From the IMG/VR virus record IMGVR_UViG_3300021956_000082, positions 1 to 23,327 of that record: 23,327 bases of DNA; one strand, written 5' to 3'. Origin of the DNA: a virus. The notes under the pieces are model-generated. The model did no database searches. It was not told the origin of the DNA and saw only the letters and a list, made by a program, of their open reading frames with translations. Each line of letters begins with the position of its first letter. Position 1 is the first letter of the stretch. Both the position numbers and the translations under genes were made by a program. Shown here in pieces: positions 2,686 to 18,667 of the stretch.

Positions 2686-3123
2686 ATGGCAAAGAAAAAA
2701 GAAACTAAACTTAATGTAGGTAAAGGCGGTTATACCTATACTGATGAAGATAAAGGTGTAGTTCCTCATCCAGGTGGCTACGAATATACTCAAAAAGAAT
2801 GGGATGAAATTCGTGATCGTTCAGCTTCTACTAAGCCTACTACGTTAAAAAACGAAAAATATAATCCTGTTAAAGTTACTAAAAAAGAAGTGTCTGTAGA
2901 AACACCTACAGGTGATATTGGAAGTGTAGATAAAACTTCTGATGTAATTGGACCTGATATGGGCAAAGTAGTTAAACCAACAGTCGAAAAAGAAATGGAC
3001 ATGATGGAAAGAGCTCGTAAATCAATGGGTTTCAAAAAAGGTGGTTCTGTTAAAGGTAGTTCAGCTTCACGTCGTGCAGATGGATGTGCTATGCGAGGTA
3101 AAACTAGAGGTCGTATTGTTTAA
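2686..3123 (+). CDS. Basic protein with C-terminal ADG-GKTRGRIV module, 145 aa
   Basis: A 145-residue basic protein. The N-terminal part contains GGYTYTDEDKG and HPGGYEYTQKEWDEI, a compact aromatic and charged segment at residues 14-42. A polar, probably disordered middle follows. The C-terminal part has KKGGSVKG at 117-124 and the shared module SASRRADGCAMRGKT followed by RGRIV (126-145). The same module ends the next gene and, in reduced form, the previous one. The SD for this gene is formed by the last codons of its upstream neighbour. No enzymatic motif is visible. The shared tail suggests a common binding partner such as capsid, portal or DNA, but that is inference. Confidence 0.75.
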   Translation: MAKKKETKLNVGKGGYTYTDEDKGVVPHPGGYEYTQKEWDEIRDRSASTKPTTLKNEKYNPVKVTKKEVSVETPTGDIGSVDKTSDVIGPDMGKVVKPTVEKEMDMMERARKSMGFKKGGSVKGSSASRRADGCAMRGKTRGRIV

Positions 3124-3125
3124 TT

Positions 3126-3395
3126 ATGGCTAAAGAAGATTACTTAGAAGGATATGGTCAAGGTCTCAAAAGAGGTGCAGAAGGACCTATCAAAGGATAT
3201 ATTAATAAAACATTAGATCTTGCTCTTGGTAATCCTCATGAAAGTGCTAAACGAGGTTTAGAACAAGGTTATAAAGAAATGAAAGAAGCACAAAAAGCAG
3301 AAAAGAAAATGTCTAAAGGTGGCTCAGTATCTTCAGCTTCTAAACGAGCTGACGGTATTGCTACTAAAGGCAAAACAAAAGGAAGGATTATATAA
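3126..3395 (+). CDS. Small basic protein with C-terminal RADG-KGKTKGRII module, 89 aa
   Basis: An 89-residue protein with a helical N-terminal body (MAKEDYLEGYGQGLKRG, then a segment with EQGYKEMKEAQKAEKK) and the shared tail. SKGGSV at 63-68 leads into SASKRADGIATKGKT and KGRII, to residue 89. The tail is nearly identical in protein sequence to that of the gene upstream but differs at many codons. Its terminal AAA GGA AGG codons provide a good SD for the next gene, whose ATG overlaps this stop by one base (TAATG). The role is unknown. It belongs to the same family of small tagged proteins near the head genes. Confidence 0.75.
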   Translation: MAKEDYLEGYGQGLKRGAEGPIKGYINKTLDLALGNPHESAKRGLEQGYKEMKEAQKAEKKMSKGGSVSSASKRADGIATKGKTKGRII

Positions 3396-3655
3396 TGAGA
3401 CCTTCACGCGGTATGGGTGCTATTAAAAAAACAAAGTTACCTAGTGCTACTGAAAATAAAATGCCTAAGGGCGTCGTCAAAAAACGTCGTGATAACACAG
3501 ACTTTATCCAATATAAAGAAGGTGGTCCCGTAGGCTTATATGCAAATATAAATGCTAGGAAGAAAAAAGGTATTTCACGTTCTAAATCAGAATCTACTAT
3601 AACACCTAAAGCATATGCAAATATGAAAGCAGGATTTCCTAAAGGGAAAAAATAA
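3395..3655 (+). CDS. Small basic phage protein with GLYANI motif, 86 aa
   Basis: An 86-residue, highly basic protein, overlapping its neighbours by one base at each end (TAATG junctions). A KEGGPVGLYANINARKKK block at 41-58 resembles a motif (GLYANI/H followed by basic residues) that I recall from many small phage proteins encoded beside tail or portal genes. The tail that usually follows this motif in those proteins is divergent here, ending KAYANMKAGFPKGKK. It lacks the KGKTKGR module of its neighbours but shares the GG-turn and lysine-rich style. Function unknown. Its tight coupling to the gp4-like gene downstream suggests a structural or assembly role. Confidence 0.7.
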   Translation: MRPSRGMGAIKKTKLPSATENKMPKGVVKKRRDNTDFIQYKEGGPVGLYANINARKKKGISRSKSESTITPKAYANMKAGFPKGKK

Positions 3656-4593
3656 TGGTTGATAGAACCACCGGTACTACGGCATTTAACTTAGATTTAA
3701 ATAATTTAGTTGAAGATGCATTTGAACGATGCGGTCAAGAGTTACGCACGGGGTATGACTTAAGAACTGCAAGACGTTCACTTAATATTATGACGGCTGA
3801 ATGGGCTAATCGTGGTATTAATATGTGGACGATTGAACCGGGTCAAATTCAGTTAAATCAAGGTCAGATTATGTATCCATTACCTGCTGATACAATTGAT
3901 TTATTAGATATGGTGACACGTACTGGCACAGGATTGAATCAACAAGACATTAATATTAACCGTATTTCTGAATCTACTTATTTAACTATTCCTAATAAAA
4001 ATGCTACAGGTCGTCCTATCCAAGTTTGGATTAATAGACAAAGTGGTCAAGAGAATCCTACAGATATTACGCTAAATGAAACTTTAACTGGCACAGACAC
4101 AACAGCAGATGACACTATTACATTATCTAGTACAGTAGGGTTAGCTCAGTTTGGCTTTATTAAAATTGGTGAAGAAACAATTCAATACGGCGGTATTAGT
4201 GGCAGTACAATCACAGGATGTATCAGAGCCGTTAACAATACAGCAATTGCGCCTCATGCAATAGGGGCTAGAGTGTATGTACAAAACTTACCTACAATTA
4301 ATGTATGGGTAGCACCTGATCAAAGCAACTTTTATACCTTTGTATACTATAGATTAAGGCGTATTCAAGATGCGGGTAATGGTGTAAATATACAAGATAT
4401 TCCGTTTAGATTTATTCCTTGCATGGTAGCAGGGTTAGCTTATTATTTGTCTATGAAATTACCTAATGTAGACCCAGGTCGCCGAGCAGAATTAAAAGCA
4501 GATTATGAGCAACAATTCCAACTTGCTGCAGATGAAGACAGAGAAAAAGCAGCTGTTAGGTTTGTACCTCGTGAAATGTTTTACCACGGGTAA
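3655..4593 (+). CDS. P22 gp4-like tail accessory factor / head-completion protein
   Basis: A 312-residue protein resembling the P22 gp4-like family that docks under the portal and begins the tail. Diagnostic features are the N-terminal helix pair LVEDAFERCG and GYDLRTARRSLNIM (about 18-46), the segment ANRGINMWTIEP (51-62), a PLPADTIDLLD strand pair (75-85), and a C-terminal helical part with FIPCMVAGLAYYLSMKLP ending in a long charged helix. Between IQVWINRQ (122-129) and INVWVAPDQ (215-223) lies an inserted Gly/Thr-rich beta domain of about 75 residues (GFIKIGEETIQYGGISG within it). The family is normally about 150-210 residues without such an insert. The start overlaps the previous TAA by one base. 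Confidence 0.83.
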   Translation: MVDRTTGTTAFNLDLNNLVEDAFERCGQELRTGYDLRTARRSLNIMTAEWANRGINMWTIEPGQIQLNQGQIMYPLPADTIDLLDMVTRTGTGLNQQDININRISESTYLTIPNKNATGRPIQVWINRQSGQENPTDITLNETLTGTDTTADDTITLSSTVGLAQFGFIKIGEETIQYGGISGSTITGCIRAVNNTAIAPHAIGARVYVQNLPTINVWVAPDQSNFYTFVYYRLRRIQDAGNGVNIQDIPFRFIPCMVAGLAYYLSMKLPNVDPGRRAELKADYEQQFQLAADEDREKAAVRFVPREMFYHG

Positions 4594-4597
4594 TTAA

Positions 4598-5029
4598 ATG
4601 CCAACCAAGTACGCTAGTGCCAAGAACTCGATTGCGCAGTGTGATCGCTGTGGATTTAGATATAAGTTAAAACAACTTAAAAGATTGGTTATCAAGACCA
4701 AAAATGTTAATATACTGGTATGTCCTGAATGTTGGGAACCGGATCAACCACAGTTAAGCTTAGGTTTATATCCAGTAAATGATCCGCAAGCAGTAAGAAA
4801 TCCAAGACCTGATAGTCCTAGTTATTATCAATCTGGATTAGATGGGATACAAGCAGAAGCAGGTACAGGTACATCACCATTACAAACTGGTGTTCCACTA
4901 TTGGGTAGTAGAATTATTCAATGGGGGTGGGGTCCTGTAGGTGGTTCAAGAGCTAACGATGCTGGATTAACGCCTAATGATCTAGTGGGAATAGGTAATT
5001 TAGGTACAGTAACAGTAACAACAACTTAA
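4598..5029 (+). CDS. Zinc-ribbon phage protein, 143 aa
   Basis: A 143-residue protein with an N-terminal zinc ribbon: C15-DR-C18 and C42-PE-C45, separated by a basic beta-hairpin (RYKLKQLKRLVIKTKN). WEPDQPQ and then PVNDPQAVRNPRPD follow, a conserved run I recall from phage proteins beside tail adaptors. The C-terminal half is Gly/Pro/Thr-rich and ends in GTVTVTTT, so it is probably extended or disordered. Its place between the gp4-like gene and the adaptor gene suggests a small virion or neck component. No nuclease or polymerase motif accompanies the ribbon. The zinc site is clearly visible; the role is inferred from position. Confidence 0.72.
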   Translation: MPTKYASAKNSIAQCDRCGFRYKLKQLKRLVIKTKNVNILVCPECWEPDQPQLSLGLYPVNDPQAVRNPRPDSPSYYQSGLDGIQAEAGTGTSPLQTGVPLLGSRIIQWGWGPVGGSRANDAGLTPNDLVGIGNLGTVTVTTT

Positions 5030-9636: not shown

Positions 9637-10830
9637 ATGGCAAGCACCTATTCAAACCTAAAAATAGAGCTCATTGGGACCGGCGATCAGTCAGGTACAT
9701 GGGGTACAACCACAAATACCAATTTAGGTACAGCGATTGAAGAGGCAATTACAGGATCAGCAGACGTAACCTTTGCAAGTGCTGATGTTACATTAACTCT
9801 TACTAATACGAATACAACTCAAACTGCTCGTAACTTACGTTTAAATCTTACGGGCACGGTAGGCGCTGCTCAGAACCTAATAGTTCCTGCTATCGAAAAG
9901 CAATATATCGTTAATAATACTTTAGGTTACGATATTACAGTTAAAAATTCAACTGGCACAGGCGTTGCAGTTCCTGCCGGTAAATCAATGATTGTATTTA
10001 ATACGGGATCAAACGTAGTAGAAGTAGTTACATCTCTTGCTACAGGTACAGTTATTCCGGTTGCAAATGGTGGTACAGGCGCTACAAGTGTAGCTTCAGG
10101 TCCTTTCGCAGCTAAAGGGGCTAACTCAGATATTACATCAATTACAGGGTTAACTACGCCTCTTGCAGTAAATCAAGGTGGTACAGGTGTTGCAACGACA
10201 ACTGCTTACGCAGTGCAATGTGGCGGTACTACGTCAACAGGCGCTTTTCAAGCTGTTTCAGGATTAGGTACATCAGGTCAACTTCTTACATCTAATGGCG
10301 CAGGCGCCTTACCAAGTTGGCAAAATGCTCCAGTAAGTACAACTATTACAGGCACAGCAAACCAAGTATTAGCAAACGGCACATCAGGTTCTGTACAATC
10401 CGGCTCGGTGACACTTACTACGCCTCAATCAATAGGTACTACATCTAACGTTCAATTTGGTTCACTAGGTTTAGGCACAGCAGCATCAGGTACATCTGGT
10501 GAAATTCGCGCTACAAATAATGTTACTGCGTACTACTCAGATGAAAGGCTTAAAACTAAGTTAGGTAATATTGAAAATGCGTTAGATAAAGTAAATAGTT
10601 TAAGTGGATTCTATTATCAAGCGAATGAAACTGCGCAAGCATTAGGATATGAAGTTAAACAAGAAGTCGGTGTATCTGCACAAGAAGTACAACGTGTGAT
10701 GCCTGAAGTAGTAGCACCAGCACCGATTGATGAAACATATTTAACAGTAAGATATGAAAGATTAGTACCACTTCTTATTGAAGCAATCAAAGAACTTAAA
10801 ACTGAAATTGATAACTTAAAGGCTAAGTAA
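9637..10830 (+). CDS. Tail fibre/spike with C-terminal peptidase S74 chaperone domain
   Basis: A 397-residue fibre protein ending in an intramolecular chaperone auto-processing domain (peptidase S74) at residues 301-397. The hallmark SDERLK is present, with S301 and K306 as the expected catalytic pair. The rest of the domain (LDKVNSLSGFYYQ, VGVSAQEVQRVMPEVV, VRYERLVPLLIEAIKEL) is complete. In this family the domain helps the fibre trimerise and then cuts itself off just before the Ser. The N-terminal part has a TYSNLKIELIGTGDQSGTWG opening, a beta domain (NLIVPAIEKQYIVNNTL region) and GGTG turns near 143-150 and 180. A clear SD (AAAGGAT) precedes the start. The mature fibre would be about 300 residues. 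Confidence 0.9.
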   Translation: MASTYSNLKIELIGTGDQSGTWGTTTNTNLGTAIEEAITGSADVTFASADVTLTLTNTNTTQTARNLRLNLTGTVGAAQNLIVPAIEKQYIVNNTLGYDITVKNSTGTGVAVPAGKSMIVFNTGSNVVEVVTSLATGTVIPVANGGTGATSVASGPFAAKGANSDITSITGLTTPLAVNQGGTGVATTTAYAVQCGGTTSTGAFQAVSGLGTSGQLLTSNGAGALPSWQNAPVSTTITGTANQVLANGTSGSVQSGSVTLTTPQSIGTTSNVQFGSLGLGTAASGTSGEIRATNNVTAYYSDERLKTKLGNIENALDKVNSLSGFYYQANETAQALGYEVKQEVGVSAQEVQRVMPEVVAPAPIDETYLTVRYERLVPLLIEAIKELKTEIDNLKAK

Positions 10831-11828
10831 TGGCACTTAATTCGTCAGGACCAATTAGCTTAGGCGGTGCTACAACTGGACAGTCTATTAATTTAGAACT
10901 TGGTCAATCTGCTACAGCTGCTGTATCTATGAATGATACTAATGTGAGAGCGTTAGCTACAAAGACAACTCCAGGTTCTGCTGTTATAGCTCCTACTGAT
11001 TTTTATGGTAAGTACTATTATTATTTGACTGCTTCAAGTAGTACTTATAGTTCATATAGTTTTATAAGCCAACAAGGTGGACTACAAAATGGTGGCGGTT
11101 CTTGTTTAGCTGGTGGTAATCCGTCTTATATTACTGATATTAATGGCGGCTGGCGTGTAGGTAACCCATACTATCCGACGTCACAAAATACAGCGTCACC
11201 TTGTTATTGGTGGACAGTTAATTTAGGAGTAGGAGATTATACAAGTTTAAGTGATATGAGAACCTTACTTAATACAGGGGGTTCTGCTTCAGCTGCTTTT
11301 AGTAGTGTAAGTGCAATATCAGGAACAACTGAACAATCATTCACTGCAGTACTTAATACAGGATATTATTGTTATTTAAATAATGGTGCAGGTACAGTTT
11401 GTTTAATGAATCCAGGTCAAACTATTACGTTTTATGTAAGCGGATCACAAACTGGCATAGGCGTTGGTACAGCAAATAGATATGCTGGCACTACTTATTT
11501 CTGTATGTTTACAGCGGATGGTGGCATATGGACTAATGATACTGGAGCTCCAGGTACGATTAATGTAATTTGCCGTGCAGTAGGTCAAGGTAAACTTGGT
11601 AACTTTAGGGTTACTATTGATGGCACTGTAGTTTATACAGGCAGTAATGGAGATACAGGTTGCGGAGGTAAGGACTATGGAGATGTTACTGTAGGACCAT
11701 TTAGTATAACAGCTACAAGCTCTGTATTAGTTGAAGAATATTGGTGGGGTTGTGGTAATTTCCAATATGGCGTTAATTATATTACAGGTGGTTCTTGGAA
11801 AATTGGTGCTACATTAACTAATGTATGA
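10830..11828 (+). CDS. Adhesin-like tail protein with conserved SGPISLGG N-terminus
   Basis: A 332-residue protein starting at a TAATG junction with the S74 fibre. The N-terminal 60 residues (SSGPISLGGATTGQSI, then SMNDTNVRALA, ending with DFYGK) match a short domain that I recall at the start of many phage appendage proteins, probably an attachment segment. The remaining 270 residues are rich in Gly, Tyr, Thr and Cys and look like a beta-sandwich receptor-binding or adhesin region (for example GNFRVTIDGTVVYTGSNG and GPFSITATSSVLVEEYWWG). No hydrolase signature is seen. Its 3' end overlaps the next small gene by four bases. Confidence 0.72.
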   Translation: MALNSSGPISLGGATTGQSINLELGQSATAAVSMNDTNVRALATKTTPGSAVIAPTDFYGKYYYYLTASSSTYSSYSFISQQGGLQNGGGSCLAGGNPSYITDINGGWRVGNPYYPTSQNTASPCYWWTVNLGVGDYTSLSDMRTLLNTGGSASAAFSSVSAISGTTEQSFTAVLNTGYYCYLNNGAGTVCLMNPGQTITFYVSGSQTGIGVGTANRYAGTTYFCMFTADGGIWTNDTGAPGTINVICRAVGQGKLGNFRVTIDGTVVYTGSNGDTGCGGKDYGDVTVGPFSITATSSVLVEEYWWGCGNFQYGVNYITGGSWKIGATLTNV

Positions 11829-11986
11829 TTGTAGAAAAAGAAATATCCGATAAAAGAAAAGAAATTTGTAATAGTTGTGAGTTTTTAAGGGATGTATTAA
11901 CATTTAAAGTTTGTAACCAATGCGGTTGTGTAACAGCGATAAAAACAGAATTAGATATAGCAGCTTGTCCTAAAGGAAAATGGTAA
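11825..11986 (+). CDS. Cys-rich small zinc-binding protein, 53 aa (DUF6171-like)
   Basis: This 53-residue gene begins at ATG 11825, overlapping the previous TGA (ATGA), and ends at TAA 11984-11986. The product contains six Cys in a clear pattern: C15-NS-C18, C30-NQ-C33-G-C35, and C48 followed by PKGKW at the C-terminus. This C-x2-C, C-x2-C-G-C, CP-x-GKW pattern resembles a common phage family (DUF6171-like) expected to bind one or two zinc ions. Its function is unknown, but it often lies among fibre genes. The family name is from motif memory. Confidence 0.72.
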   Translation: MIVEKEISDKRKEICNSCEFLRDVLTFKVCNQCGCVTAIKTELDIAACPKGKW

Positions 11987-12153
11987 TGACAGAAGTAGTA
12001 TCACAATATGATCCTAAGCCTTATCCATCATGGATAATTGATCCAGCGTGTGGATGTTGGGTAGCGCCTGTTGAATATCCTAATGGCACAGGTAAAGTTT
12101 ATCAGTGGGATGAATCTATTTTAAATTGGGTTCTTTTTCCAAATGAAGCGTAA
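11986..12153 (+). CDS. Small fibre-associated protein related to the 18293 gene, 55 aa
   Basis: This 55-residue gene starts at a TAATG junction (ATG 11986) with the Cys-rich gene and ends at TAA 12151-12153. Its sequence KPYPSWIIDP, then CWVAPVEYP, then VYQWDESILNWV matches, residue type by residue type, the C-terminal module of the protein at 18293-18667 (QPFPSWTLNN, WEAPTPMP, IYTWDEATVSWV). Its two Cys (C22, C24) sit where the longer protein has T and T/W. It is therefore a stand-alone copy of that module. In other phages this module accompanies fibre genes. An assembly or tip-associated role is plausible but unproven. Confidence 0.72.
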   Translation: MTEVVSQYDPKPYPSWIIDPACGCWVAPVEYPNGTGKVYQWDESILNWVLFPNEA

Positions 12154-12170
12154 ATACAAAGGAAATATAA

Positions 12171-13805
12171 ATGGCATCAACGATTAATGCAATAACTACA
12201 GGTACAGGTGGTGTAGTCACTACAGCTGACTCGTCAGGTAATCTTAACTTCCAATCAAACGGAACTAATATGATGACTTTGACCCCACAAGGTATTGCAT
12301 TTCCTATTACAGGATATTTTGGTTTGCCATATGGTACAACTGCTGAAAGACCTTCACCTGCTACTGTAGGATATACAAGATTTAATACTACATTAAATGC
12401 AGTAGAAACATATAATGGGACTGGTTGGAACGTAGCGTATGAATTTTCAATACCCGGTGCTCCTACTATTGGAACTGCAACAGCGACAGGAACTACAACT
12501 GCAACAGTAACATTTACTGCACCTACAAATACCGGCGGTGGTATTACATCATATACTGCGGTATCTTCACCTGGAGGTATTACTGCAACATTAGTACAAG
12601 CAGGTTCTGGCACTATTACAGTAACGGGGCTTACTACTGGAACAGCTTATACATTTACAGTTTATGCAACTAACGTTGCTGGCAATTCATCATCTAGTTC
12701 TGCGTCAAATTCAATTACAACTTATCAAGTACCAGGCGCACCTACAATAGGTACAGCAACAGCTACAGCATGGAATACAGCTACAGTAACATTTACTCCT
12801 CCAGCTAATTTAGGCGTTCCAGCAACATCAAGTTATACTGCTGTATCTTCACCAGGAGGTATTACAGGTACATCTTCAACATCTCCAATTACTGTAACAG
12901 GTTTATCAGCTACAACATCTTACACATTTACAGTATATGCATCAAATGCTGCTGGCAATGGAGCTTCAAGTTCAGCTTCTAATTCAATTACAACTCCGGC
13001 TAAATCTATGACATATCTTTCTATTGCTGGGGGTGGCGGTGGTGGAACAGGCTCTCCTGCTGGTGGTCCTCGTGCTGGTGGTGGAGGCGGTGCTGGTGGG
13101 CTATTAACAGGAACTTTACCTGTTGGAGCTGGACAAGTATATTCTGTTACTATTGGTGGTGGTGGAGGTAATACAGCTAGTGGTAGTCCAACTACATTAA
13201 CTAATGCAACTACTGCTGTAGGTGGTGGCTATGGTGCGCCAGGAGCTGGAACTGCTAGTCCTGGAGGATCTGGTGGAGGTGGCGGTCAAGGACCAGGTGT
13301 TGGCGGTGCAGGCACAGGAACGCCAGGTCAAGGAACTAATGGTGGCGATGGTTGGGGTTCTGGTAGTGCTGGTTTACCATTTGGTGGAGGTGGCGGTGGA
13401 GGATCTAGTAGTGCTGGTGGCGCTGCTGGAACTAACCCTGCTGGTGTATCTGGCACAGGCGGAAATGGAACGGCTTCATCTATTACAGGATCTCCGTCTA
13501 CATATGCTGGAGGTGGATCAGGTGGTGTGCAAAATAATGGAGGATCTTATACTGTAGGAGCTGCAGGTCCTGGAGGCGGTGGAACGGGATCTAGAGATGG
13601 CGGCGGTGGAAGTAATGCAACTGGATATGGATCTGGTGGAGGTGGCGGTGGCTCTAGCGGAGGATTTAATGGATCTGCGGGTGTGGTAATATTATCTATT
13701 CCAACAGCTTTGTATACAGGAACTTATTCTGGTACTCCTTCTATTACAACAAGCGGATCAAATACTATATTAACATTTACTGGTGCTGGAAGTTATACAT
13801 CATGA
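12171..13805 (+). CDS. Tail fibre 1: two Fn3 domains and a glycine-rich tip
   Basis: A 544-residue fibre. Residues 1-90 include a GLPYGTTAERP segment leading into YTRFNTTLNAVETYNGTGW, a short domain shared with the paralogue at 14053. Two fibronectin type III-like domains follow (about 93-186 and 187-277), with APTIGTATAT, SYTAVSSPGG and YTFTVYATN strands. Residues about 284-505 form a glycine-rich region with G3-G7 runs, TPGQGTNGG and AGGG blocks, in which polyglycine helices could pack as in some phage adhesins. A conserved beta tail closes it (GVVILSIP and ILTFTGAGSYTS). The SD is AAAGGAA. The next gene overlaps its stop. It is probably a receptor-binding fibre. Confidence 0.85.
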   Translation: MASTINAITTGTGGVVTTADSSGNLNFQSNGTNMMTLTPQGIAFPITGYFGLPYGTTAERPSPATVGYTRFNTTLNAVETYNGTGWNVAYEFSIPGAPTIGTATATGTTTATVTFTAPTNTGGGITSYTAVSSPGGITATLVQAGSGTITVTGLTTGTAYTFTVYATNVAGNSSSSSASNSITTYQVPGAPTIGTATATAWNTATVTFTPPANLGVPATSSYTAVSSPGGITGTSSTSPITVTGLSATTSYTFTVYASNAAGNGASSSASNSITTPAKSMTYLSIAGGGGGGTGSPAGGPRAGGGGGAGGLLTGTLPVGAGQVYSVTIGGGGGNTASGSPTTLTNATTAVGGGYGAPGAGTASPGGSGGGGGQGPGVGGAGTGTPGQGTNGGDGWGSGSAGLPFGGGGGGGSSSAGGAAGTNPAGVSGTGGNGTASSITGSPSTYAGGGSGGVQNNGGSYTVGAAGPGGGGTGSRDGGGGSNATGYGSGGGGGGSSGGFNGSAGVVILSIPTALYTGTYSGTPSITTSGSNTILTFTGAGSYTS

Positions 13806-14056
13806 TGACTACACAAGAACTTATTGAAAAGTATACTGATGAATCAGGTGAATTTATATTTGGCATTGATAAAGTAATGGATGCAATAAGACCAAATGCA
13901 TTATATGAACTCTCTATTAACGCAGGATTTTTTAACGTGACTCGTTGGGACGAAGGTCAAAATATGGAAGCACCAAGTTCACAAGAAATACGAGAAGAAT
14001 ATTTAAGACATAAAGCAATTAAAGAAACTTTAGATTATATTAGGAGCAAGGCATGA
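13802..14056 (+). CDS. Small partner of fibre 1, possible fibre chaperone, 84 aa
   Basis: An 84-residue acidic helical protein embedded between two glycine-rich fibres, overlapping both (ATGA at each end; a second ATG at 13805 is possible). It contains IDKVMDAIRPNALYELS (22-38), FFNVTRWDEGQNMEAPS (43-59) and a C-terminal helix with EEYLRHKAIKETLDYI. The pattern of a short helix, two strands with W-DEG, and a charged helix resembles small XkdW-like or tail-fibre-assembly proteins that follow fibre genes. That resemblance is weak. Its place matches that of the two oxygenases behind fibres 2 and 3, so a fibre-folding or fibre-modifying partner is a reasonable guess. Confidence 0.66.
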   Translation: MMTTQELIEKYTDESGEFIFGIDKVMDAIRPNALYELSINAGFFNVTRWDEGQNMEAPSSQEIREEYLRHKAIKETLDYIRSKA

Positions 14057-15678
14057 GTATTGTTTTACAAGGTACAGGTATAGTTAATACTACGTGGACA
14101 ACGGCTACACGCCCTTCTTCTCCATCTATTGCTCAAGTTGGATATAACACAGATACAGGATTTATGGAGTATTGGACTGGAACTGCTTGGATTTCAACAG
14201 GACAAGTTTACGATGCTGCAACAACATCAACAGGATTCTTTGCATTACCGTCAGGTACAACTGCACAAAGACCTGTGTCTCCAGCAAGTGGCTATACAAG
14301 ATTTAATACAACATTAAATGCAGTGGAATCTTATTCTGGCGTGACAAGTAAATGGGAAATATTATCAACCTATACTTCTATTCCAGGAACTCCAACTATT
14401 GGAACTGCTACTGCTACTGGCACTACTACTGCTACAGTGGCATTTACTCCTCCAGCTGATCTTGGAGGTGGAGTATCTTCTTATACAGCTACATCAAGCC
14501 CAGGGGGTATTACAGCAAGCGCTGGATCATCTCCTATCACGGTAACTGGATTAACAGGTGGAACTTCATATACATTTACAGTAACAGCTACTAATAGCGC
14601 TGGTACTTCTCCAGCAAGCTCTGCATCTAATTCAATTACAACTTGGACGGTTCCAGGTGCACCTACTATTGGTACTGCTACTAAAACAGGTGCAACTACT
14701 GCAACAGTTTCTTATACTGCTCCTGGTAATAATGGAGGTACGGCAATTACATCATATACAGCTGTATCTAGCCCAGGCGGTGTTACAGGTACATTAGCAA
14801 CTGCTGGATCAGGTACTATTACTGTATCAGGTTTAACTGGTAATACAACATACACATTTGTTGTTTATGCTACTAATGCTGTGGGAAACTCTGCAAATAG
14901 TTCTGCTTCTAATTCAATTACTACTGATCCTTTAGTTTATACAGTGGATTATTTAATTGTAGCTGGAGGTGGAGGTGGGGCTAATTCCTTAGCTGGCGGT
15001 GGTGGAGCTGGTGGTTTTAGAACAGGTACAGGTCAGTCTGTTACCCAAGCAACTGCATATCCAGTTACAGTAGGTTCTGGTGGTGCAGGTAATGGTAGTA
15101 GTGTAAAAGGCACTAGTGGTAATCCATCATCTGTATTCTCTGTGACTTCAACAGGTGGAGGTGGTGGAGGTGGCAATTCATCTCGTCCCGGTGCTCCAGG
15201 TGGTTCTGGAGGTGGAGGTGGACCTAATGACTTAGGTGGTGGCGGAGGTGGTACAGGTACTCCTGGTCAAGGCACTAATGGAGGTACGGGTAACGGAGGC
15301 GGTCCGTTTGGTGGCGGTGGCGGTGGCGGTGCTAATACTGCTGGTTCTGGCGGCACAGGTGCTCCTGGTGGTCCTGGTACAGCAAATTCTTATTCTGGTT
15401 CTCCTGTAACTTATGCAGGTGGTGGGGCTGGATGTAATAACGGTGGTGGTGGAGGTACTGGAGGTACTGGTGGAGGCGGTCCTGGTACAGGTACAGCAGG
15501 GACTGCTAATACGGGTGGTGGTGGAGGAGCATCAAACCCATCTACTGGCGGCACTGGAGGTTCTGGAGTAGTTATTATTAGATACCCTGGTTCACAAACA
15601 GGTAGTGGTGGAACTGTAACTAACGTAGGCGGATATACAATTCATACATTTACATCAAGCGGAACATTTACAGGATGA
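14053..15678 (+). CDS. Tail fibre 2: two Fn3 domains and a glycine-rich tip
   Basis: A 541-residue paralogue of the fibre at 12171. An N-terminal WTTATRPSSPS/GYNTDTGFMEYWTG segment (residues 15-45) is unique to this copy. A FALPSGTTAQRP to YTRFNTTLNAVESYSG module (63-95) is then shared. Two Fn3-like domains lie at about 109-201 and 202-294. The glycine-rich region runs from LIVAGGGGG (about 301) to about 505, with GTGTPGQGTNGG and TYAGGG blocks like fibre 1. The tail GVVIIRYPG to IHTFTSSGTFTG is a variant of the common C-terminus. Protein similarity is high, but the DNA is diverged at synonymous sites. The stop overlaps the oxygenase start (ATGATG). Confidence 0.85.
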   Translation: MSIVLQGTGIVNTTWTTATRPSSPSIAQVGYNTDTGFMEYWTGTAWISTGQVYDAATTSTGFFALPSGTTAQRPVSPASGYTRFNTTLNAVESYSGVTSKWEILSTYTSIPGTPTIGTATATGTTTATVAFTPPADLGGGVSSYTATSSPGGITASAGSSPITVTGLTGGTSYTFTVTATNSAGTSPASSASNSITTWTVPGAPTIGTATKTGATTATVSYTAPGNNGGTAITSYTAVSSPGGVTGTLATAGSGTITVSGLTGNTTYTFVVYATNAVGNSANSSASNSITTDPLVYTVDYLIVAGGGGGANSLAGGGGAGGFRTGTGQSVTQATAYPVTVGSGGAGNGSSVKGTSGNPSSVFSVTSTGGGGGGGNSSRPGAPGGSGGGGGPNDLGGGGGGTGTPGQGTNGGTGNGGGPFGGGGGGGANTAGSGGTGAPGGPGTANSYSGSPVTYAGGGAGCNNGGGGGTGGTGGGGPGTGTAGTANTGGGGGASNPSTGGTGGSGVVIIRYPGSQTGSGGTVTNVGGYTIHTFTSSGTFTG

Positions 15679-16223
15679 TGCACGTAGAAAAATTTATACC
15701 TGATTCGTATAAAAATGATTTGATTTTATTGATGGGAGATGATTATTTCCCTTGGTACTATAATGCCATGACAATATCATATGATGACCATGACATATTT
15801 TATCAATTTACCCACAATATATATGGCGAAGATAAAATTAAATCTGAAACATTTTATAGAGTTCAACCATTGTTATATTTCTTTGAACAATCATCAGGTT
15901 TAAAGATTAAAAGCATTAGAAGAATTAAAGTTAATTTATTGCCTAGACAGCCAGTATCAGAAGACCAAGAAAAGACAGCTATGCATACTGACTTGGATTA
16001 TGAAGAAAATGCAAAAGATACTAAAAATTTTATATCCATTGTTTACTACGTAATAGACTCTGACGGAGATACTGTTATATGCGATAATAATGGTAACGAA
16101 TTAAAAAGAGTTAGCCCAAAAGCTGGGGATTGTGTTTGGTTTAGATCAGATATGCCACACTATCCCGAAGTGCCAAAAATACATAAAAGAAGAATTGTTA
16201 TTAATATAATTGTAGAAGTTTAA
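15675..16223 (+). CDS. 2-oxoglutarate/Fe(II)-dependent oxygenase 1
   Basis: A 182-residue protein with the signature of 2OG-Fe(II) oxygenases (prolyl-4-hydroxylase-like double-stranded beta-helix). The metal triad is H104-T-D106 and H162, and R172 or R173 ten or eleven residues later is placed to hold 2-oxoglutarate. The surrounding strands fit: ISIVYYVIDSDGDTVI, KAGDCVWFRSDMPHYP and RIVINIIVEV. No DNA-binding or AlkB-type motif is seen. It is coupled to fibre 2 by a four-base overlap and lies ahead of fibre 3, so its substrate may be a fibre, for example prolines in the glycine-rich tip. Alternatives are nucleic acid or lipopolysaccharide precursor hydroxylation. The enzyme family is well supported; the substrate is inference. 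Confidence 0.84.
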   Translation: MMHVEKFIPDSYKNDLILLMGDDYFPWYYNAMTISYDDHDIFYQFTHNIYGEDKIKSETFYRVQPLLYFFEQSSGLKIKSIRRIKVNLLPRQPVSEDQEKTAMHTDLDYEENAKDTKNFISIVYYVIDSDGDTVICDNNGNELKRVSPKAGDCVWFRSDMPHYPEVPKIHKRRIVINIIVEV

Positions 16224-16232
16224 GGATAAAAT

Positions 16233-17714
16233 ATGAGTTCAGTAGTTATAGCAGGCGATACCTCAGGAAGTATAACCTTACAAGCACCAGCAATAGCTGG
16301 ATCTAATACTATTACTTTACCTGCATCTACAGGTTATTTATTTGTCACTCCTACAGCGGGAACATTAGGTACATCTTCAGGCGGTACAGGACTCTCAAGT
16401 TTTACTTCTGGTGGAGCTATGTATGCTACATCTACAAGTGCTTTAACTACAGGAACATTGCCAATAGCTTCTGGAGGCACAAACAACTCGGCACTAGCTG
16501 TAACCGCAGGTGGAGCTTTATATACAGATGGTTCAAAAATAGTTAACGTAGGTGCTGGAACTTCAGGTCAGTTTCTAAAATCAAATGGTGCATCAGCTCC
16601 AACTTGGGCTACAGCAGGATTATCTTGGCAGTCTGTACAAACAACAGGATTTACGGCAACTGCTGGAAACGCATATCCATGTAATACCACATCAGCGGCA
16701 TTCACTGTTACATTACCTGCAAGTCCATCAATAGGAGATCAAGTACAAATTGTAGACTATGCTGCGACATTTGCTACTAACAATCTAACAGTTGGTAGAA
16801 ACGGAAACAAAATTATAGGACAAACTTCTAATTATTTACTAACTACAAATAGAGAAGCAGTTATTTTTACTTACATTGATTCAACTCAAGGATGGGTAGT
16901 TTCAAGCGCTGCTTATACTACTACACCACTTACATCGCCACCATATTCTGCATCATTTCTTGTAGTTGCTGGTGGTGGAGGCGGTAATAATGTTGAGAAT
17001 GCTGGAGGTGGTGGTGGCGCTGGGGGTTTATTAAGTGGAACAGTCACTTTAACAGCGGCTCAAGTTTATACAGCTACAGTAGGTGGAGGCGGTAGCGCAG
17101 GAGTCAACGGATCAAATTCAGTTTTATCTGGTTCAGGAATCTCAACTCAAACAGCTATCGGCGGAGGAGGTGGATCAGCTGCTGGTACTCGTGCCGCTGC
17201 AGGAGCGCCTGGTGGATCTGGTGGAGGCGGTGGTGGATGGGATGGCGGAACTTACAGTGCTGGCGGTTCTGGAACTCCTGGTCAAGGTAATTCTGGTGCT
17301 TCTGGAAGCCCTACTGCTTTTGGTGGCGGTGGCGGAGGTGCTGGTGCTGCTGCAACAACAAAAAATGGAGCAAACGGATCTGCTTCATCTATTACAGGAT
17401 CATCTGTGACTTATGCAGGTGGGGGTGGAGGAGGATCAGATACAAGATTTGGTACTGGCGGTACTGGTGGATCGGGTGGCGGAGGTGCCGGTGCTGTACC
17501 AGGTTCAGGTGGAGCTGGAACTGCTAATCTTGGCGGAGGTGGTGGTGGTTCTGGAAATGGAGGAGGACCTGGTGGTACTGGAGGTTCTGGTGTAGTAATA
17601 TTGTCAGTTCCAACTGTAAACTATACAGGAACTACTACAGGTAGTCCAACCGTTACAACATCTGGATCTGATACTATTATTAAATTTACAGCATCGGGAA
17701 CTTATACTGCATAA
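16233..17714 (+). CDS. Tail fibre 3: GGTG shaft and glycine-rich tip
   Basis: A 493-residue fibre with a different base from fibres 1 and 2. It opens MSSVVIAGDTSGSITLQAPA, a common phage-fibre N-terminus, followed by SSGGTGLSSF and ASGGTNNSAL shaft turns and a compact beta domain at about 130-235 (SWQSVQTTGFTATAGNAYPC, GDQVQIVDYA, QGWVVSSAAY). No Fn3 domain is present. From FLVVAGGGGG (about 242) to about 455 it has the same glycine-rich tip type as fibres 1 and 2, including SGTPGQGNSG and VTYAGGGGG. The shared C-terminus GVVILSVP to IIKFTASGTYTA closes it. AAGGAT provides the SD. The stop overlaps oxygenase 2 (TAATG). Confidence 0.84.
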   Translation: MSSVVIAGDTSGSITLQAPAIAGSNTITLPASTGYLFVTPTAGTLGTSSGGTGLSSFTSGGAMYATSTSALTTGTLPIASGGTNNSALAVTAGGALYTDGSKIVNVGAGTSGQFLKSNGASAPTWATAGLSWQSVQTTGFTATAGNAYPCNTTSAAFTVTLPASPSIGDQVQIVDYAATFATNNLTVGRNGNKIIGQTSNYLLTTNREAVIFTYIDSTQGWVVSSAAYTTTPLTSPPYSASFLVVAGGGGGNNVENAGGGGGAGGLLSGTVTLTAAQVYTATVGGGGSAGVNGSNSVLSGSGISTQTAIGGGGGSAAGTRAAAGAPGGSGGGGGGWDGGTYSAGGSGTPGQGNSGASGSPTAFGGGGGGAGAAATTKNGANGSASSITGSSVTYAGGGGGGSDTRFGTGGTGGSGGGGAGAVPGSGGAGTANLGGGGGGSGNGGGPGGTGGSGVVILSVPTVNYTGTTTGSPTVTTSGSDTIIKFTASGTYTA

Positions 17715-18271
17715 TGACTTCATTTATATATGAGCACCAAATAGAAGATACAAGTATTTGTGATGAAATCATTCAATACTTTAAACAAAGCAACAATAAA
17801 ACACAGGGGAAAATATACAAAGATTCTGTTTATACAATAGACGAAACAATAAAAGCTTCTACAGATGTTTATTTAGATCCGTGTCCACTTGCAGAAAAAT
17901 ATTGTATACAGCTACAAAAGGCATTGGATGAATATATAAACATATATGAGTTTAGTGGAAAATGTGCTGAATTTGGTTTAGTTGAAAGAATTAATATTCA
18001 ACAGTATTTACCAAGCCAAGGTTTTCATATGTGGCATAGTGAAAGAATGCATGGAAATGGAGCTGCATCATCAAGACATTTAGTGTTTATGACTTATCTT
18101 AATGATGTTAATGACGGCGGTGAAACAGAATTTTATTATCAACAAATAAAAATTAAACCTAAAAAAGGTAAAATAGTTATATTTCCAACAGACTGGACGC
18201 ATACACATAGGGGTATTACTTCCAAGACAGAGGAAAAATATATTACAACTGGGTGGTTTAACTTTAAATAG
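17714..18271 (+). CDS. 2-oxoglutarate/Fe(II)-dependent oxygenase 2 (prolyl hydroxylase-like)
   Basis: A 185-residue 2OG-Fe(II) oxygenase of the type common in phages. The proximal motif is WHSE (H108, E110), so the usual H-x-D is H-x-E. It is followed by HLVFMTYLNDVNDGGETEF (122-140), the strand KIVIFPTDWTHTHRG with distal H165, and K175 in EKYITTGWF as the likely 2-oxoglutarate-binding basic residue. Length and strand order fit a complete enzyme. It differs greatly from oxygenase 1, so the two are not recent duplicates. It directly follows glycine-rich fibre 3 with a one-base overlap. A role in hydroxylating virion protein is suggested by this position; DNA or host-metabolite substrates are possible. 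Confidence 0.87.
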   Translation: MTSFIYEHQIEDTSICDEIIQYFKQSNNKTQGKIYKDSVYTIDETIKASTDVYLDPCPLAEKYCIQLQKALDEYINIYEFSGKCAEFGLVERINIQQYLPSQGFHMWHSERMHGNGAASSRHLVFMTYLNDVNDGGETEFYYQQIKIKPKKGKIVIFPTDWTHTHRGITSKTEEKYITTGWFNFK

Positions 18272-18292: not shown

Positions 18293-18667
18293 ATGAGTCA
18301 TTTTGCAAAAGTATGTGATGGTAAAGTTATACGAGTAATCGTAGCTGAACCAGAATTTTTTCAAACATTCGTAGATGATAGTCCAGGTGAATGGATTCAA
18401 ACATCTTATAATACACGTGGTGGTAAACACTATGATCCAGAAACAGGATTAGAAGATGATAAACCAGCTTTACGTGGTAACTATGCTGGACCTGGTATGG
18501 TTTATGATCGTACAAACGATGTATTTTATAACCAACAACCATTTCCTTCATGGACATTAAATAATACAACATGGACATGGGAAGCTCCAACACCTATGCC
18601 AGTAGCTGAAGGTAAAATTTATACGTGGGATGAAGCTACAGTATCTTGGGTTGAAGTAGCGGAATAA
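18293..18667 (+). CDS. Conserved phage fibre-region protein with WDE module, 124 aa
   Basis: A 124-residue protein with a strong SD (AAGGAG). The N-terminal half (MSHFAKVCDGKVIRVIVAE, then GEWIQTSYNTRGGKHYD) and the C-terminal half (PFPSWTLNNTTWTWEAPTP, YTWDEATVSWVEV) match a family that I recall from many cyanophages and other aquatic phages, encoded near tail-fibre genes. The biochemical role is unknown; roles in fibre assembly or as a small virion protein have been supposed. The second half is duplicated as the separate 55-residue gene at 11986. The two related genes flank the glycine-rich fibre block. The stop overlaps the next gene by one base. Confidence 0.78.
   Translation: MSHFAKVCDGKVIRVIVAEPEFFQTFVDDSPGEWIQTSYNTRGGKHYDPETGLEDDKPALRGNYAGPGMVYDRTNDVFYNQQPFPSWTLNNTTWTWEAPTPMPVAEGKIYTWDEATVSWVEVAE

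Follow-up and report, generated by a model that had tools for sequence, protein, structure and literature searches.

Glycine-rich phage tail-fibre tips encoded beside 2-oxoglutarate/Fe(II) oxygenases: a candidate system for fibre modification

The substrates of vCPH, the prolyl 4-hydroxylase (P4H) of the chlorella virus PBCV-1, are proline-rich repeats. Proteins of the virus itself are the presumed targets of this enzyme, which comes from a eukaryotic large DNA virus (Eriksson 1999, cited in PMC9301287), and the role of viral P4Hs has been called cryptic (PMC9301287). For mimivirus, modification of the collagen that the virus encodes is ascribed to a lysyl hydroxylase/glycosyltransferase of the L230 type (Luther 2011, cited in PMC12220804). 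Among bacterial viruses, glycine-rich domains bind receptors in phage Pam3 and in the phages carrying gp38: the gp24 fibre of Pam3, which is encoded with the gp25 chaperone, and the gp38 adhesins of S16 and PP01 display a glycine-rich receptor-binding lattice, and an oxygenase partner is not mentioned in the available excerpts of the articles describing them (PMC9608196, PMC12892980). The 2-oxoglutarate (2OG)/Fe(II) oxygenases abundant in marine phages have so far been assigned to auxiliary metabolism or to DNA repair, or left as unknown. The same holds for the cyanomyoviruses Syn9 and S-SM1 and the pelagimyophage HTVC008M, which encode, near glycine-rich fibres, oxygenases of the families found in the locus studied here; these are annotated as auxiliary, as repair enzymes or as unknown, and the literature searched states no role for them in fibres.

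Here, we examined a stretch of viral DNA of 23,327 nucleotides (IMG/VR record IMGVR_UViG_3300021956_000082, hereafter the window), which at 23.3 kb is probably a partial virus genome. Among named phages, its tail stabilisation protein is best matched in phage DSL-LC04, planktothrix/cyanobacterial phages, roseophages and pelagiphages. Phage DSL-LC04 is a freshwater phage whose host is given as Gammaproteobacteria. A first reading made from the letters alone (the sequence-only reading) had proposed that glycine-rich fibre tips are encoded in this region together with enzymes that hydroxylate them. The features of the locus are the following.

12171..13805, + strand: fibre 1, 544 aa (ORF), with a phage structural N-terminus, two fn3 domains (Pfam, 1.6e-17) and a glycine-rich C-terminal domain; matches phrog_2295/phrog_1325
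about 13026-13664, + strand: glycine-rich domain of fibre 1, Gly 45%, Pro 5.6%
13320..13334, + strand: TPGQG loop of fibre 1, GTGTPGQGTNGG (sequence)
13802..14056, + strand: 84-aa gene, partner of fibre 1 (ORF, homologues)
14053..15678, + strand: fibre 2, 541 aa, with two fn3 domains (Pfam, 5e-18) and PF21722 Gly_rich_2 (2.6e-18)
about 14962-15633, + strand: Gly_rich_2 domain of fibre 2
15259..15273, + strand: TPGQG loop of fibre 2 (sequence)
15675..16223, + strand: oxygenase 1 (ox1), 182 aa, 2OG/Fe(II) oxygenase; PF13640 2.5e-7, phrog_274 3.7e-29
16233..17714, + strand: fibre 3, 493 aa, with a tail-fibre N-terminus (tail-fibre PHROGs) and PF21722 Gly_rich_2 (6.3e-16)
about 16968-17585, + strand: Gly_rich_2 domain of fibre 3
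17274..17288, + strand: TPGQG loop of fibre 3 (sequence)
17714..18271, + strand: oxygenase 2 (ox2), 185 aa, P4H-like 2OG/Fe(II) oxygenase; PF13640 1e-13, phrog_61 1e-44
18293..18667, + strand: 124-aa protein of the phrog_7759 family, with a start like 'AHFAK/GHYAK' and the end 'YxWDE..W'

The open reading frames bear out the alternation of fibre tips with partner genes, all in a single direction from 12171 to 18271, in the order that the sequence-only reading had described. The overlapping gene ends on which it had based the notion of a coupled partner for each tip are likewise present, with 4-nt ATGA overlaps between fibre 1 and the 84-aa gene, between the latter and fibre 2, and between fibre 2 and ox1, and an overlap of 1 nt only (TAATG) between fibre 3 and ox2. 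They do not carry over as evidence of modification: the 84-aa family also occurs beside tips devoid of oxygenase (L063, L080) and, since overlaps of 1-4 nt are frequent at other borders in the window (e.g. 3395, 3655, 6116, 10830 and 21342), overlap alone is weak evidence of a special pairing. In other loci (L011, L049, L052 and phage DSL-LC04), a member of the 84-aa family separates a glycine-rich tip from an oxygenase. The protein has no Pfam match above threshold, Tfa/chaperone profile included, and its relatives match phrog_21526, a PHROG without assigned function. By its position alone, which is that of gp25, the dedicated chaperone folding the glycine-rich fibre of Pam3 (PMC9608196), it is probably a fibre assembly chaperone. 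Genes of the phrog_7759 family regularly adjoin glycine-rich tips in other phages, where the recurrent order is a tip, a small protein of the phrog_7759 or 84-aa family, and a run of one to seven oxygenases.

The Gly_rich_2 profile (PF21722) matches fibres 2 and 3, fibre 1 being linked to them via phrog_2295 only. TPGQG and APGG or SPGG stretches occur in all three tips, as first read. The accompanying description of the tips as loosely collagen-like had to be abandoned, because their cores show polyglycine runs, with no long (G-x-y)n repeat, and Pfam returned no collagen match for them at E<=1. Proline amounts to 5.8% of the core in fibre 2 and to 2.4% in fibre 3, the lowest of the three and the one adjoining ox2. 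For tips of their loop class, fibres 1 and 2 have a fairly high proline content. AlphaFold2 modelled the glycine-rich domain of fibre 3 with a pLDDT of 96.1, and the best, weak Foldseek matches of this tip in the PDB (E about 0.008-0.0095) were the Bxb1 tail tip, the Pam3 fibre and the extracellular region of the LTK kinase, which we take, in part from the description of Pam3, to share a polyglycine lattice. A glycine-lattice fold is thereby predicted for the fibre 3 tip. In this predicted lattice the tip may resemble the glycine-rich adhesins of Pam3 and of the gp38 phages, at a fold match of E about 0.01 only.

Both oxygenases pass the curated PF13640 cut-off of 27 bits, with scores of 32.0 for ox1 and 52.5 for ox2. 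The site residues of ox1 (H104-x-D106, H162 and R173) are invariant in a family alignment of 21 sequences (A2), as are those of ox2 (H108-x-E110, H165 and K175, the iron site being HxE instead of HxD) in the alignment of its own family (A1). Since metal- and 2OG-site residues are invariant within each family, both sites of the window enzymes can be regarded as intact, in agreement with the sequence-only reading. In comparisons of the ox2 family profile with solved structures, prolyl 4-hydroxylases were the only matches. The ox2 model (pLDDT 88.7) has as its best Foldseek match vCPH (PDB 5c5t, E 5.7e-10, TM 0.71, about 21% identity), from which it differs by the HxE motif; the P. putida P4H and PHD2 are also among the top fold matches, the B. 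anthracis P4H is another structure resembling ox2, and no AlkB appeared in the best 50. By sequence and predicted fold, ox2 is a member of the protein-hydroxylase (P4H) branch. The ox1 family is more distant, with weak profile matches to P4Hs (E 0.05), so that nearest homologue and fold point to a P4H for ox2 only. Simple sequence patterns retrieved no ox1 relatives from viral contigs, and a glycine-rich query of the phage collection gave no matches, probably an effect of low-complexity filtering. The phrog_274 type, to which ox1 belongs, is commonly annotated 'DNA endonuclease V', a name that does not fit because the family carries a 2OG site. An identity of ox1 with T4 endonuclease V (DenV; DNA glycosylase/AP lyase fold) was rejected, the 2OG profile and site being present.

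We propose that the locus is a tail-fibre module and that its receptor-binding tips, rich in glycine, would be encoded with their own maturation factors, namely putative small chaperones (the 84-aa gene and the phrog_7759 gene) and the two 2OG/Fe(II) oxygenases. Following translation, the oxygenases would hydroxylate side chains of the neighbouring fibres at the expense of Fe(II), O2 and 2-oxoglutarate, and this hydroxylation may make the glycine lattice, or the loops on it, more stable or ready the tip for a further step. That ox1 and ox2 modify the window fibres next to them, which we infer to be their substrates, is in our view reasonably probable.

A survey of tip-oxygenase linkage against chance, as called for by the sequence-only reading, bears on this proposal. 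Viral contigs were chosen by the YLxVAGGGG motif alone (tip sample, 120 loci among the matches listed), by collagen-like repeats (118 new loci among the matches listed) or, as a random control, by an arbitrary 15-mer (65 loci). Open reading frames were called mechanically and oxygenases were marked by phmmer, with seeds taken from the window, related contigs and annotated cyanophages. Among the matches listed, an oxygenase was found within four genes downstream of the tip in 40 of 120 loci and upstream in 1 of 105 (p=8e-12). Oxygenases made up 112 of the 1452 genes in tip loci (7.7%) versus 2 of 809 in random loci (0.25%; p=8e-20). Of the two oxygenase-bearing random loci, L283 is itself a tip-oxygenase locus. 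Collagen-like fibres behaved similarly, with an oxygenase downstream in 7 of 43 cases and upstream in none of 50. The contigs are short, so little weight attaches to a missing oxygenase near a contig end. Relatedness among the sampled contigs was controlled in part: almost every locus is connected to the others through common tail genes, in a single component, which made lineage counts by shared genes unworkable, and contig clustering together with a comparison within podovirus-type loci was used instead. Each window family can occur on its own behind a tip, as in L439, where a tip and a phrog_7759 gene are followed by an ox2 relative as sole oxygenase, and in L448, where an ox1-family gene stands alone in the same place. 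An absence of linkage, which the sequence-only reading had named as grounds for refutation, was thus not what the survey showed. The strong downstream linkage, which extends over many marine and freshwater phages, supports the general idea of tip modification.

A relation between tip sequence and enzyme family emerged in other phages. The proline content of the sampled tips is 6.2% near an oxygenase versus 2.5% otherwise (2.5 times, p=3e-11), and whole-tip proline marks oxygenase loci with a locus AUC of 0.93; this marker tracks one PKHD/P4H-like family (GC412) and not all oxygenases, and was therefore not applied to the window enzymes. The signal is centred on one loop beside a conserved QG, whose proline-rich form is PPx[ST]PxQG, typically GNTPPVSPPQGN. 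Loci with this form contain an oxygenase in 26 of 29 cases, and the remaining three show at most three downstream genes, giving 26/26 among those viewable. A fresh sample was then drawn by the loop pattern PPVxPPQG alone (loop A), with GTSGQG as control and with loci seen earlier left out. Where at least four downstream genes were visible, an oxygenase accompanied 60 of 65 loop-A tips versus 7 of 69 GTSGQG tips (p=1e-23), and the loop-A result persisted after merging similar contigs (56/62 clusters at 90% and 18/22 at 80% identity). The GC412 family is present in 69 of the 71 oxygenase-positive loop-A loci (any view). Within loci sharing the podovirus-type genes of the window, loop A coincides with GC412 in 29 of 34, versus 8 of 29 for non-class-A tips with any oxygenase. 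The nearest solved relatives of this family are PKHD-type hydroxylases (PiuC) and bacterial P4H. We found no statement of a tip-loop/oxygenase relation in the open literature. GC412 is absent from the window and, as the record is partial, a gene of this type may lie elsewhere in this phage.

A further arrangement concerns fibres with collagen-like X-K-G repeats, X-K-G being a lysyl-hydroxylase context. In one locus (L180), such a fibre is followed by a fusion-like protein that combines a GT25/PLOD-type glycosyltransferase with a 2OG part, and the same order of fibre and enzyme is seen in Synechococcus phages S-PRM1 and S-CAM9 and in Roseobacter phage CRP-6; the GT25, PLOD_GT and 2OG domains were read in L180 and assigned in the three phages by homology to it. 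These proteins resemble the L230-type enzyme of mimivirus and are absent from the window. One ox2 relative, gp160 of S-PRM1, is encoded behind a collagen-like fibre.

The linkage could also arise by hitchhiking, if fibre loci were recombination hot spots that collect auxiliary oxygenases acting on a host protein, a metabolite or nucleic acid. Hypervariable host-recognition regions of marine myophages indeed carry a wide assortment of unrelated genes, glycosyltransferases among them (PMC7029224), and four loci (L004, L005, L018 and L019) carry ox2 relatives with no glycine-rich tip in the fetched stretch. Such cargo would hardly account for the strict downstream polarity, for a random control in which one of the two oxygenase-bearing loci turned out to be a tip locus, or for a proline-rich loop from which the presence of one P4H/PKHD-like family can be predicted in fresh loci, also within those of podovirus type. 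The correspondence between loop sequence and enzyme family argues against hot-spot cargo unless modules always transfer whole, and module co-transfer is a possible cause of the covariation. We consider hitchhiking unlikely as an explanation.

Fibre modification as proposed above includes, as a special and overlapping case, the chemistry put forward by the sequence-only reading, namely prolyl 4-hydroxylation of the TPGQG and APGG stretches in the window tips. The membership of ox2 in the P4H branch and the proline content of fibres 1 and 2 favour this case. The survey, however, gave no enrichment of TPGQG near oxygenases (1 of 36 loci versus 3 of 78), so that its choice as a prolyl substrate found no backing. 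As markers of oxygenase-linked tips, TPGQG, APGG and SPGG were all rejected (p=0.83, 0.27 and 0.38, respectively). TPGQG is one form of a loop class that is usually oxygenase-free (oxygenase in 6/46 and 7/69 loci); as the window tips belong to this class and their enzymes fall outside GC412, the survey lends no support to prolyl hydroxylation at TPGQG. The proline-poorest tip of the window is moreover the one beside ox2, and the proline-rich loop pairs with an oxygenase family that the window lacks. Tips adjoining ox2 relatives where the enzyme of the proline-rich loop is missing are mostly proline-poor (about 1-2% in L002, L003, L007 and L009), that of L439 included, and no common target residue was found in tips adjoining ox2 relatives. 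We therefore judge this chemistry doubtful for the window tips, and the ox1 and ox2 families are unlikely to have the TPGQG proline as their general target.

Some marine clusters hold tryptophan halogenases and other enzymes, an observation that fits other chemistry and counts against fibre modification. Cyanophage clusters of halogenase and 2OG genes have been proposed to carry out metabolite or capsule chemistry (PMC7824862), and oxygenases might accordingly act with halogenases to make a small molecule (secondary metabolite) or to decorate the surface polysaccharide of the host capsule. Tryptophan halogenases are present in L002, L032, Syn9 and three loop-A loci; in the tip sample they are rare (1/120 among the matches listed) and weakly linked, the window is devoid of such accompanying genes and ox2 falls in the protein-hydroxylase branch, which together make this reading improbable. 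DNA repair or modification, suggested by the 'DNA endonuclease V' name given to phrog_274 in PHROGs and several records and by the AlkB-like role put forward for cyanophage 2OG genes (PMC2984593), is very improbable given the invariant HxD...H...R site of the ox1 family, the protein prolyl hydroxylases that top the ox2 matches, with no AlkB among the best 50, and the location of both genes within a fibre module.

Returning to fibre modification, we lean towards extending it to phages in general. Enzymes encoded directly behind the glycine-rich and collagen-like fibres of a phage would hydroxylate these fibres and, in certain lineages, probably glycosylate them as well; the GC412-type family would act on prolines of NTPPVSPPQG-type loops and other families, including the two of the window, on other residues. 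The loop-enzyme covariation supplies a concrete pair of peptide and enzyme. If this proposal is true, a large set of phage genes now called 'unknown' would gain a function, and recombinant tips produced without their oxygenases may be wrong. Host recognition may then hinge on the oxygen, iron and 2-oxoglutarate that the infected cell contains, and these genes would represent a widespread, unrecognised class of protein modification by bacterial viruses.

The phrog_274 family, which includes oxygenase 1 of the window (15675-16223) and a gene of the sampled viral contig L017 (10702-11190), carries the label 'DNA endonuclease V' or denV in PHROGs and in many cyanophage records. Because an HxD...H...R site is conserved in this family, its members are, judging from their sequences, 2OG-Fe(II) oxygenases, and the label appears to be wrong.

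Upstream of fibre 1 (12171-13805), the window holds the following genes:
10830-11828, fibre-like gene, 332 aa, without a match in Pfam and PHROG searches
about 11824-12150, two small ORFs, the first overlapping the fibre-like gene and featuring a CxxC...CxxC pattern

Among the 120 loci picked by tip motif (L020-L139), the glycine-rich cores of oxygenase-paired tips contained 0.91% cysteine versus 0.14% in unpaired tips (~6-fold), and were likewise richer in lysine and aspartate. In marine phages, the phrog_7759 gene and the first oxygenase repeatedly flank the gene for a conserved protein, roughly 167-184 aa long and with the sequence MQKKVLSEIALYYGD... (L077:3372-3872; L106:2424-2924; L072:2939-3484). 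Some fibre-oxygenase clusters contain or adjoin tryptophan halogenases (L002:7637-8725; L032:1778-2956; L015:1621-4726; L016:1855-3249), which are scarce overall (1/120 tip loci).

In another sampled locus, L180, a collagen-like fibre precedes a protein (2801-4621) in which Pfam identified GT25, PLOD glycosyltransferase and 2OG oxygenase domains, the last scoring slightly under the cut-off. Homologues matching this protein along most of its length were found in three phages, preceded by collagen-like fibres with X-K-G repeats:
L324, Synechococcus phage S-PRM1, gp158-gp162
L325, Synechococcus phage S-CAM9, gp222-gp218
L326, Roseobacter phage CRP-6, gp60-gp58
The L180-type protein appears to be the phage equivalent of procollagen lysyl hydroxylase/glycosyltransferase.
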